Part shown: positions 37,059 through 40,931 of the stretch, piece after piece
Position numbering within the stretch: the first letter of the stretch is position 1
How the letters are laid out: every line of letters starts with the position of its first letter
Assembly: GCA_016786665.1 (NCBI GenBank)
Contig: JAEUVZ010000029.1
Coordinates: 1 to 64,000 of the forward strand
Reading direction: 5' to 3'
Source of the DNA: Flavipsychrobacter sp.
Lineage (GTDB): Bacteria > Bacteroidota > Bacteroidia > Chitinophagales > Chitinophagaceae
Length of the DNA stretch: 64,000 nt
Notes under the pieces: model-generated
Told to the model about the DNA's origin: nothing
What the model saw: only the letters and a program-made list of their open reading frames with translations
Databases searched by the model: none
Made by a program: the position numbers and the translations under genes

Positions 37059-37088
37059 AGCGGCTGCCTTTGTAAGGGCAGCCGCTTT
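37057..37088 (+). terminator. Terminator of miaA
   Basis: A perfect 12-base stem AAAGCGGCTGCC / GGCAGCCGCTTT begins within the miaA stop region. It sits between miaA and the convergent Cys-rich gene and may serve both. Confidence 0.88.
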
Positions 37089-37107
37089 GCTTTATACGGT
37101 GTTAACA

Positions 37108-37380
37108 CTATTTAGCTTTAGACGCGGTAGTGCTGGAAGAAGATGAAGACGATGATGAAGATGATGTTGTTGTTTTAGACGAAGCGGTTGTTTCGTGCTT
37201 ATCAGTGCACGCAGTGGCCTTCGCATCACCATCCTTCTTGCAACAGGCTTTCGCGGAAGCTTCCTTCTTGCAGCAAGCTTTGTCACCTTTCTGATCTTTC
37301 TTGCAGCAGCTCTTTCCATCACCGGCAAATGCTCCACCAGCAATCATTACCGTCGCTAATAACAATGTGAGTTTTTTCAT
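37108..37380 (-). CDS. Small exported Cys-rich protein with CCKK repeats
   Basis: A 90-residue protein with a typical signal peptide (MKKLTLLLATVMIAGGAFAG). The mature region holds three CCKK motifs (CCKKDQKGDKA, CCKKEASAKA, CCKKDGDAKA), one more Cys, and a low-complexity Ser/Thr tail with 11 consecutive serines. It resembles small Bacteroidota Cys/Lys-rich exported proteins that I recall only as hypothetical. The vicinal cysteines suggest binding of a soft metal such as copper or zinc; this is inference. The gene is the last in the CPBP-cdsA-psd direction and has a TAATATTGC promoter-like element about 40 bases upstream. Confidence 0.72.
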   Translation of the reverse strand: MKKLTLLLATVMIAGGAFAGDGKSCCKKDQKGDKACCKKEASAKACCKKDGDAKATACTDKHETTASSKTTTSSSSSSSSSSSTTASKAK

Positions 37381-37420: not shown

Positions 37421-38077
37421 TTACGACAAATGCGCCAATACGGTCACACCGCCTTTTACTACATCTCCTATTTTAACATCTACTTTGGTTCCTGCCGGCA
37501 GGTACACGTCCACCCTTGAGCCAAACTGTATAAAGCCAAACTCATCATTTTGTTTCACCTGCTGCCCTTCTTTTACATAATATTTTATGCGGCGGGCAAG
37601 CGCACCGGCTATCTGGCGCATCAGTAGTTCTACGCGGTCGTTTCCTATTACCAGCGTAGTACGTTCATTTTCCGTAGACGATTTAGGATGCCACGCCACC
37701 AGGTACTTGCCCGGGTGGTACTTCATATACTTTACCACACCGCTTATCGGGTTGCGGTTTACGTGTACATTCAGCGGCGACATAAAGATGGATACCTGCA
37801 GGCGCTTATCTTTAAAGTACTCTGTTTCAGTGGTTTCCTCTATCACCACTACTTTGCCGTCTGCCGGGGCTACTATCAGGTACTCCCCCTCCGCATGTTG
37901 GCGGTTAGGCAGTCGGAAAAACCACAATACCCAAAACCACAGCAAAAAGAACACAACGTTCAGCGCAACATTGATAACAGGCCAGTCTACCAGGAACCGA
38001 ACCAGCACAAAACCCAGTAAAGCCCAGATAGCCGACGCTATCAACACGTATTTATAACCCTCGCGGTGTAGTTTCAT
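37421..38077 (-). CDS. psd: Phosphatidylserine decarboxylase
   Basis: The pyruvoyl-dependent enzyme that makes phosphatidylethanolamine from phosphatidylserine at the inner membrane. It is the short (archaeal-type) form of 218 aa. Two N-terminal hydrophobic segments are followed by MSPLNVHVNRNPISG, IAGALARRIKYYVKEG and the self-cleavage site in IQFGSRVDVYLP, where the chain splits between Gly and Ser to form the pyruvoyl cofactor. I use ATG 38077 (MKLHREGYKYV), since the promoter element four bases upstream excludes 38095. The partner pssA is not in the window. Confidence 0.93.
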   Translation of the reverse strand: MKLHREGYKYVLIASAIWALLGFVLVRFLVDWPVINVALNVVFFLLWFWVLWFFRLPNRQHAEGEYLIVAPADGKVVVIEETTETEYFKDKRLQVSIFMSPLNVHVNRNPISGVVKYMKYHPGKYLVAWHPKSSTENERTTLVIGNDRVELLMRQIAGALARRIKYYVKEGQQVKQNDEFGFIQFGSRVDVYLPAGTKVDVKIGDVVKGGVTVLAHLS

Positions 38078-38081
38078 GGGG

Positions 38082-38090
38082 GCAAAAGTA
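38082..38090 (-). promoter_or_regulatory. -7 element TACTTTTGC of psd
   Basis: Perfect TAnnTTTGC, four bases before the psd ATG, so the mRNA should be leaderless. It also gives psd its own transcription start separate from cdsA. Confidence 0.7.
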
Positions 38091-38186
38091 ACCACGATTC
38101 TGTTGATTTTGATGATTTGCCCCTATAATTGGTAAATAATGTTATGCCGCGGCTCTGGCAATGGCCAATCAACTTTTAATATGGGC

Positions 38187-39008
38187 TTAAAACATAAACA
38201 GGTATGCATACACAAAGGCAAACGGGGTGGCTACCAGCAGCGAGTCGAACCGGTCTAGTGCGCCGCCATGGCCAGGCATCATAGTACCACTGTCTTTTAC
38301 TCCCGCCAGCCGCTTCAGCTTGCTTTCCAGCAGGTCGCCGGCGGTACCGGCCACGGAAGCACATAGGGCCAGCATTATCCAGTCCACCATCCGGTATTCG
38401 CCGGTATAGTACCCAAATGCAGCTGCGCCCGCTATGGTCAGCAGGGCCCCTCCGGCGGTGCCTTCCCAGGTCTTTTTAGGCGATATGGGAGAGAAGGGCG
38501 TTTTACCAATAAACGAACCCACCAGGTACGCCATCGTATCATTCGTCCACAGCATCAGTATCAGGGCCAGCGGCAGTATATATCCTTCCCGCCGGTACAT
38601 GATTACCAGCATCACCATAGGCAGGAATATGTAAAACAGCCCTGCCAGCGCCTGCAACGCCGCCGCCAGCGCTGTGCGCTTGTCCAGCACCGCCAGCAGC
38701 AATATCAGTATGGGGAAGAACAACAGGAAGAAGAACGGCGCGGGCGTCAGGCCTTTAAAGAAAGAAGACAGCAACCACACCCAAACAAAACAGATGACTT
38801 GTACGGTATTCTCCATCCAGTCGGGCCAGTAGGTATCGGGCTGTATTTTTCGTACCAGCGAAAAGTATTCCCGGAAACAAAGTAGCTGGATAACGCTCAC
38901 CAGTGCCACAAACCCGGTATCATTCCAAAGCAATCCCGTCATCATTATGATGCAGAAAATGATCGCGCTCCCAAGGCGGGTAAAGAAAGTAGGCCAATTC
39001 AGTGGCAT
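38187..39008 (-). CDS. cdsA: Phosphatidate cytidylyltransferase
   Basis: CDP-diacylglycerol synthase, which activates phosphatidic acid with CTP at the inner membrane, the branch point for phospholipids. Seven to eight hydrophobic segments across 273 aa. The C-terminal family signature SKLKRLAGVKDSGTMMPGHG, followed by GALDRFDS, is fully present, and PKKTWEGTAGGAL is the usual upstream block. It starts 22 bases after the CPBP protease gene on the same strand and precedes psd, so the three genes form a phospholipid group. Predicted by family to need Mg2+. Confidence 0.94.
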   Translation of the reverse strand: MPLNWPTFFTRLGSAIIFCIIMMTGLLWNDTGFVALVSVIQLLCFREYFSLVRKIQPDTYWPDWMENTVQVICFVWVWLLSSFFKGLTPAPFFFLLFFPILILLLAVLDKRTALAAALQALAGLFYIFLPMVMLVIMYRREGYILPLALILMLWTNDTMAYLVGSFIGKTPFSPISPKKTWEGTAGGALLTIAGAAAFGYYTGEYRMVDWIMLALCASVAGTAGDLLESKLKRLAGVKDSGTMMPGHGGALDRFDSLLVATPFAFVYAYLFMF

Positions 39009-40103: not shown

Positions 40104-40931
40104 ATGAAACTTTTCTTAAAGACACTTATTGTAGTGTCTATTTTATCAGTCTCAACCGGTTTTGTCCGTAACTGGAGTCTGTCTATCGACCTATTTGTAA
40201 GTTTTGGAGCCTTTTTCCTTGCCACATGGTATTTCACAAACAAAGTCAAATCCATAAATACGCTTCTGCTTCTTTTAGTAAATATCTTGCTGATAAACGT
40301 AGTCGTCACATACCTATTAGACGGTAAACTACCGCTGCTTGGCCTACCTAATATCTTGTGTATGATAGCGGGAACTTTGACCGGTTATTTCTTTTATACA
40401 GCAGCAAAAAAAGTCCATAAAATCATCACGCTTCTGCTGGGAGCTATTACCTGTATCTCCTTATATGCGACGCATGAAAAATGGGTTCACTATTTAAATT
40501 TCGGGAATATTTCAGGCAGCGTCGCTGAACCTGGCATTTCAGATGTTAGGTTTTATAACAAGCAGGGCGAGACGATTAATGCAACCGACTATACCAGCAA
40601 AATAGCCATTCTCGATTTTTGGAACAGGGGATGCCTGGTGTGCTATCAAAAGTTTCCTAAACTACAGCAACTGTACAATAAATATAAATCCGACCCGCGA
40701 ATCGTAATTCAGGCAGTTAATATTCCTTTAGAAGGGGACAATGCAGGAATAGCTTTCGATATCGTTGAACAAAAAGGTTATACATTCCCTGTAATAATCG
40801 GCGCTAATAATGCTGACTCTATTTTTCAGATTAATGTCTACCCAACAGTTATTCTGATAAATAATGGCAAAATAATTTACCGGGGAGGGATTGAACCGGC
40901 AATGGCAGTTGTAGAAGATTTACTTCGTTAG
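40104..40931 (+). CDS. Membrane protein with C-terminal TlpA-like thioredoxin domain
   Basis: A 275-residue fusion of an N-terminal membrane region (about residues 1-130, four or five hydrophobic segments such as IDLFVSFGAFFLATWYF and TLLLLLVNILLINVVVTYLL) and a C-terminal redoxin domain. The thioredoxin active site reads CLVC (in NRGCLVCYQKFP), and the cis-proline region is NVYPTVIL. The family would reduce or shuffle disulfides at the outer face of the membrane. Base composition is striking: three 60-base lines I counted give 35-42 percent GC, against about 60 percent in the adjacent dxs gene, suggesting horizontal acquisition. No operon partner. Confidence 0.8.
   Translation: MKLFLKTLIVVSILSVSTGFVRNWSLSIDLFVSFGAFFLATWYFTNKVKSINTLLLLLVNILLINVVVTYLLDGKLPLLGLPNILCMIAGTLTGYFFYTAAKKVHKIITLLLGAITCISLYATHEKWVHYLNFGNISGSVAEPGISDVRFYNKQGETINATDYTSKIAILDFWNRGCLVCYQKFPKLQQLYNKYKSDPRIVIQAVNIPLEGDNAGIAFDIVEQKGYTFPVIIGANNADSIFQINVYPTVILINNGKIIYRGGIEPAMAVVEDLLR

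Follow-up and report, generated by a model that had tools for sequence, protein, structure and literature searches.

A conserved family of exported Cys/Lys-rich peptides encoded behind psd in many Bacteroidia, with a possible role as an envelope metal or thiol buffer

The 64,000-nucleotide stretch of Flavipsychrobacter sp. DNA analyzed in this report (hereafter "the window") carries a small open reading frame (ORF) that starts with ATG and, as read from the window translation, comprises 90 codons (Table 1). The gene lies on the same strand as psd, from which it is separated by a gap of 40 nt, with psd upstream and a cdsA-type gene beyond it. The latter does not reach the cut-off set for the NCBIfam equivalog model. 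The initial annotation of this locus had remarked on the proximity of phospholipid genes, and this is borne out. On its other side, the peptide gene is convergent with miaA. An inverted repeat seen by eye between these two genes, at about 37059-37092, may terminate both.

Table 1. Features at the peptide locus of the window.
Feature	Position	Strand	Remarks
Exported Cys/Lys peptide gene	37108..37380	(-)	90 aa; purifying selection in relatives, conserved position
Predicted signal peptide, residues 1-19 (MKKLTLLLATVMIAGGAFA)	37324..37380	(-)	Crude rule and reading
CCKK module 1, residues 25-28	37297..37308	(-)	Cys25 and Lys27 nearly invariant (23-relative alignment)
CCKK module 2, residues 37-40	37264..37275	(-)	Cys37 invariant (23-relative alignment)
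CCKK module 3, residues 47-50	37234..37245	(-)	Lys49 nearly invariant (23-relative alignment)
11-serine run, residues 73-83	37132..37164	(-)	Private to the window genome
psd, phosphatidylserine decarboxylase	37421..38095	(-)	PF02666, 147 bits; NF003678, 280 bits (cut-off 225)
cdsA-type phosphatidate cytidylyltransferase, upstream of psd	38187..39008	(-)	PF01148, 191.7 bits (cut-off 24)
Membrane-bound thioredoxin-like protein gene	40104..40931		Nearby

The predicted protein begins with a signal-like N-terminus ending in AFA, consistent with the export signal proposed earlier; the call rests on a crude rule and visual inspection. In an alignment of 23 relatives, the initial MKK is invariant and A19 is nearly so. 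No lipobox is found in the window protein, whose first Cys is residue 25 and follows AFA-GDGKS. In some relatives, a Cys comes right after the signal, and a canonical lipobox is again absent by eye. The three CCKK motifs listed in the initial annotation are present, and they are packed more tightly than the "about 35 residues" given there, with an actual span of 26 residues. The seventh Cys is residue 58. The 11-serine stretch also exists as described. However, the window protein is the only one among 79 relatives with at least five consecutive serines, and a polyserine tail as a working part of the peptide is not supported. At the DNA level, the pattern encoding CCKK occurs six times in the window, including three times inside the peptide ORF, compared to a mean of 0.25 and a maximum of 2 in 100 shuffles.

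Neither Pfam nor NCBIfam gave a match to the window peptide above any curated cut-off, and searches of the 23 relatives against Pfam returned nothing beyond weak, scattered matches. A profile search of solved structures yielded three weak matches (E 0.11 to 0.55), which were judged irrelevant. With the window peptide as the sole query, matches were obtained in 62 of 294 genomes of the family. Among the best 30 of these 62 matches, psd lies directly upstream on the same strand at 28 loci, the window included; the exceptions are L020 and L025. Another peptide of the family matched seven named records (six uncultured "Bacteroidetes bacterium" assemblies and one Chitinophagaceae assembly), and psd is directly upstream in all seven.

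A profile built from 23 peptides, with E values up to 1e-6 counted as strong, produced 41 strong matches, each in a different one of the 107 family genomes; the window genome likewise carries a single strong copy. Of these matches, 32 are located behind psd, one is about 1.6 kb from it, and eight are elsewhere. A second profile, made from members found in the class, gave 24 strong matches in 80 class genomes, with 18 directly behind psd, two within 3 kb, and four elsewhere. Because most of the sequences used for both profiles (A1 and A2) were psd-linked copies, the linked shares in these two sets lean upwards. The suggestion in the initial annotation that similar Cys/Lys-rich peptides are common in the phylum is supported across the class.

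Copies away from psd adjoin housekeeping genes, with neighbors named by eye, and no evident metal operon was seen beside them in the same reading. A metal link by way of these neighbors was consequently given up. In three genome pairs (L331/L337, L330/L332, and L338/L339), the unlinked copies adjoin the same housekeeping genes; recurring neighbors, again by eye, are valS, a leucine dehydrogenase-like gene, and a dus-like gene. Given this recurrence, the gene seems to have moved only rarely before staying in place. Two weak profile matches (L342:3808-4458 and L344:3815-4341) are immediately preceded by a different small ORF that is Cys-rich, looks exported, and has no NCBIfam match. In addition, L340:4439-4708 is a Lys-rich exported ORF devoid of Cys that scores 24.9 bits against the Asr (acid shock protein) model, whose cut-off is 50.

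The association was also counted starting from psd, which is present in 105 of the 107 family genomes, 55 of the 60 sampled from the order, 78 of the 80 sampled from the class, and all 61 sampled from the phylum, with these samples overlapping in a few near genomes. A genome was scored as linked if a small ORF starting within 320 nt behind psd satisfied our own criterion for an exported Cys/Lys-rich protein, namely the signal rule plus a mature part with at least three Cys and a Lys content of 8% or more. Exported ORFs light in Cys (e.g., in G013, G043, and G060) were therefore scored as misses. A linked ORF was found in 35 of 101 genomes of the family, after four loci were dropped at contig edges; in 21 of 49 genomes from other families of the order, where one locus was dropped likewise and G320 was left out because its psd runs up to the end of the contig; and in 23 of 78 genomes from other orders of the class, with one locus dropped at an edge. 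Among other classes, the count was 0 of 29, where 29 of 46 genomes were read and the 17 with the least similar psd were left out. As controls, the opposite strand and the interior of psd each gave 0 of 257, and the interval 490-870 nt behind psd gave 2 of 243. Thus, although linkage to psd occurs in a minority of genomes at every taxonomic depth, it is far beyond chance. On a quick tree of the 257 psd proteins, parsimony required 39 changes of the linked state, compared to a mean of 65.6 and a least value of 56 in 200 within-group shuffles. The linkage is inherited, yet it has been gained or lost often.

Other genes also occupy the position behind psd. In five loci of the order (L064, L067, L080, L083, and L206), an exported low-complexity or disordered ORF with few or no Cys is found there. 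By eye, a pssA-type CDP-alcohol phosphatidyltransferase gene follows psd in other classes (L269, L272, L291, L295, L299, and L300) and, within the class, in L281 and L283. One report describes a Pss-Psd cluster as helping gut Bacteroidales under bile stress and calls its genes essential (PMC11300592).

The mature parts of the 79 psd-linked proteins contain 475 Cys residues and have a distinctive composition, with 22.7% Lys, 8.7% Cys, 1.3% His, 0.9% Met, almost no hydrophobic residues, and a mean net charge of about +7. The cysteines also follow a strict arrangement. The CC pair occurs 138 times versus 39.9 in shuffles (3.5-fold enriched), CCKK 73 times versus 2.8, and K.CC 101 times versus 10.8. 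In contrast, CxC is entirely missing (0 versus 39.2 expected from shuffles) and CxxC nearly so (2 versus 38.3). Spacings of 4 and 5 are likewise low (23 and 15 versus 37.6 and 36.9), whereas this does not hold for a spacing of 6 (45 versus 36.2). Because the genomes are related, such shuffles overstate the independence of the sequences.

A CC pair is found in 77 of the 79 proteins, even though our criterion did not require one. The paired cysteines are thus conserved in homologues, and the objection anticipated in the initial annotation, that they might not be, falls away. The same rule is visible in 17 copies that are not directly behind psd, where CC occurs 29 times, CxC 0 times, and CxxC 3 times, compared to 7.8, 7.6, and 7.9 in shuffles; seven of the 17 were chosen by a rule requiring at least one CC, such that the CC excess is partly built in while the CxC count is unaffected. 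Since unlinked copies keep the pattern, the rule goes with the protein rather than with the place. Neither the class-wide adjacency to psd nor this spacing rule was part of the initial annotation.

Comparison of close relatives indicates that selection on the gene is purifying and that it behaves as a protein gene. A dN/dS value was obtained for 19 of 20 close pairs, and 18 of the 19 fall within 0-0.37; the remaining pair gave 0.73 with very few changes. For the window and its nearest relative, dS is saturated (pN 0.18, pS 0.78). Summed over the close pairs, several of which share members, aligned Cys columns keep Cys in 121 of 124 cases. An AlphaFold2 model made from a 23-row alignment has a mean pLDDT of 50, and its sole helix is the signal (residues 4-16). 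This low pLDDT agrees with disorder, although the alignment is too shallow for proof.

The sequences preceding the genes bear on how the psd linkage should be understood. The motif TAnnTTT[AG], which we take to be a Bacteroidota-type promoter element, occurs 20-60 nt before the ATG of 54 of the 79 peptide genes (shuffles: mean 10.3, maximum 19) and before 13 of 39 psd genes (mean 4.3, maximum 10). Its strict form, TAnnTTTG, is found in 28 of 79 gaps versus 3.4 expected. Many copies may therefore be transcribed on their own, and expression can be separate and steady. No promoter-like element was seen by eye in the 40-nt gap of the window, so read-through from psd is possible there. Co-transcription as the cause of the linkage is weakened by the elements before the peptide genes. 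Because over half of the copies have such an element and some copies are elsewhere, the link to psd is best described as genomic.

Given the Lys/Cys composition, the CC blocks, the retained Cys columns, the low pLDDT, and the single strong copies, we tentatively propose that these are exported, disordered, polycationic thiol proteins that act in the envelope as buffers of soft metals or electrophiles. We regard this as a real possibility that falls somewhat short of being probable. The peptide would be exported by Sec and stay unfolded, and its mature part would be a polycation whose vicinal thiol pairs each lie within a K-x-C-C-K-K block. The lysines may keep it at the anionic surface of the envelope and may also make the thiols more reactive, while the thiols could bind Cu+, Zn2+, and similar soft metal ions. 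Such a peptide would be a constitutive metal and thiol buffer of the envelope, and it would lie behind psd because both genes are needed as the envelope grows, rather than because their products share an enzymatic step.

Some observations do not fit easily with this proposal. It is surprising that a metal buffer should avoid CxC and CxxC, the spacings by which cysteines usually chelate. The Cys-free exported ORFs behind psd in the five order loci mentioned above count against buffering of metals or thiols, and the housekeeping, non-metal neighbors of unlinked copies count against a metal buffer. So does the lack of association with known copper-handling families: MNIO enzymes, encoded in 10 of 107 family genomes, occur in 6 of 41 genomes with a strong match versus 4 of 66 without (p 0.18), and the corresponding figures for DUF326 are 5 of 41 and 15 of 66 (p 0.21).

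The near absence of CxC and CxxC, which readily close into disulfides, speaks for a reading in which the CC pairs would serve as a thiol reserve that traps oxidants, aldehydes, or other electrophiles near fresh membrane, or as a redox substrate. Lysine beside cysteine favors the thiolate, as a matter of general chemistry, and the membrane-bound thioredoxin-like protein encoded nearby would suit such a role. However, the conserved CC blocks are more ordered than would be required of a mere reserve, and no VKOR-type oxidase was found in the window genome. An oxidizing periplasm therefore cannot be assumed, and we dropped it as a reason for CxxC avoidance. On balance, a simple thiol reserve seems unlikely. 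A different view would tie the peptide to the phosphatidylethanolamine and phosphatidylserine of its neighbors, as a polycation lying on anionic lipid or lipopolysaccharide whose CC pairs are cross-linked by disulfides or S-acylated. Adjacency to psd that recurs at four taxonomic depths, up to other orders, and that is inherited on the psd tree favors such a lipid partner or envelope glue, and CC beside basic residues resembles eukaryotic S-acylation sites. Yet at least 9 of the 41 strong family matches are not behind psd, more than half of the genes have their own promoter-like element, and we know of no bacterial periplasmic S-acyltransferase for such sites. We consider this view quite unlikely, and more doubtful than a thiol reserve.

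The position behind psd might instead carry no meaning, if an exported Cys-rich protein of any role simply stayed within a block that is slow to rearrange. The separate promoter-like elements and the cysteine rule kept by unlinked copies are both compatible with this. However, parsimony on the psd tree counts no fewer than 39 changes of the linked state, which still recurs in distant orders; the place is thus not frozen, and mere inertia appears to us an improbable explanation. It is far less credible that the peptide is the precursor of a modified copper-binding peptide, a bufferin or a relative. The combination of a Sec signal and a Cys-rich mature part is that reported for bufferins (PMC12452194), but an MNIO enzyme (PF05114) is missing from the window genome and from 35 of the 41 family genomes with a strong match, and there is no Pfam match, DUF2282 included. 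The missing MNIO enzyme led us to reject the bufferin reading.

Little work has been done on the exported Cys-rich proteins of Bacteroidota, and a single-copy family with strict Cys spacing, found beside one and the same lipid gene both within a family and in other orders, offers a concrete target. It also yields the clear prediction that CC counts, not CxC. If metal is bound, the family is likely to be a main player in envelope metal buffering in the class; if not, the spacing rule suggests that vicinal thiols serve some other purpose. A bolder idea, which we think doubtful, is that the CxC-free K-x-C-C-K-K blocks of this Bacteroidia-wide family, undescribed as far as searched, form a distinct code for binding soft metals or lipid surfaces, and that the work of the family is functionally coupled to phosphatidylethanolamine synthesis by psd. 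The family itself is real, conserved, and apparently unnamed: no paper on it was recognized from titles and the starts of abstracts among the papers listed from an open-access library, although one may exist.

Among known systems, bufferins have a Sec signal peptide and a Cys-rich mature part, and bufferins and the Buf_EGKCG/oxazolin peptides have repeated Cys with copper binding proposed or shown (PMC12452194). The window peptide shares a Sec-type signal, by the crude rule, and Cys richness, and it differs in its KxCCKK blocks, in lacking an MNIO or partner gene, and in having no DUF2282 match. Csp1-type copper storage proteins (DUF326) are also Cys-rich and may be exported. However, they form a helical bundle, whereas the window peptide is modeled as disordered, and DUF326 (PF03860) has no match in the peptide or elsewhere in the window genome. 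Replacement of DUF326 or MNIO proteins by the peptide was considered and rejected because, with no significant association, it neither accompanies nor replaces them.

SilE, PcoE, SmbP, and Hpn-type proteins are exported, disordered metal-binding proteins that use His or Met ligands. The peptide resembles them in its low complexity and in a predicted signal peptide or repeats, and it may also share their unfolded state, with the signal called by rule and the pLDDT of 50 coming from a shallow alignment. It differs in its scarcity of His and Met, in having no family match, and in its neighbors in the window, which are psd, cdsA, and miaA rather than a metal operon. Metallothioneins are small, Cys-rich, and disordered without metal, and vicinal CC pairs occur in them. 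Their other hallmarks are dense Cys with CxC or CxxC, of which the 475 Cys of the peptides include 0 and 2 instances, respectively, and a Pfam or NCBIfam match, of which none was above cut-off. The peptide family is like metallothioneins in small size, Cys richness, CC pairs, and predicted disorder, and differs from them in being exported, Lys-rich, poorer in Cys, and free of CxC.
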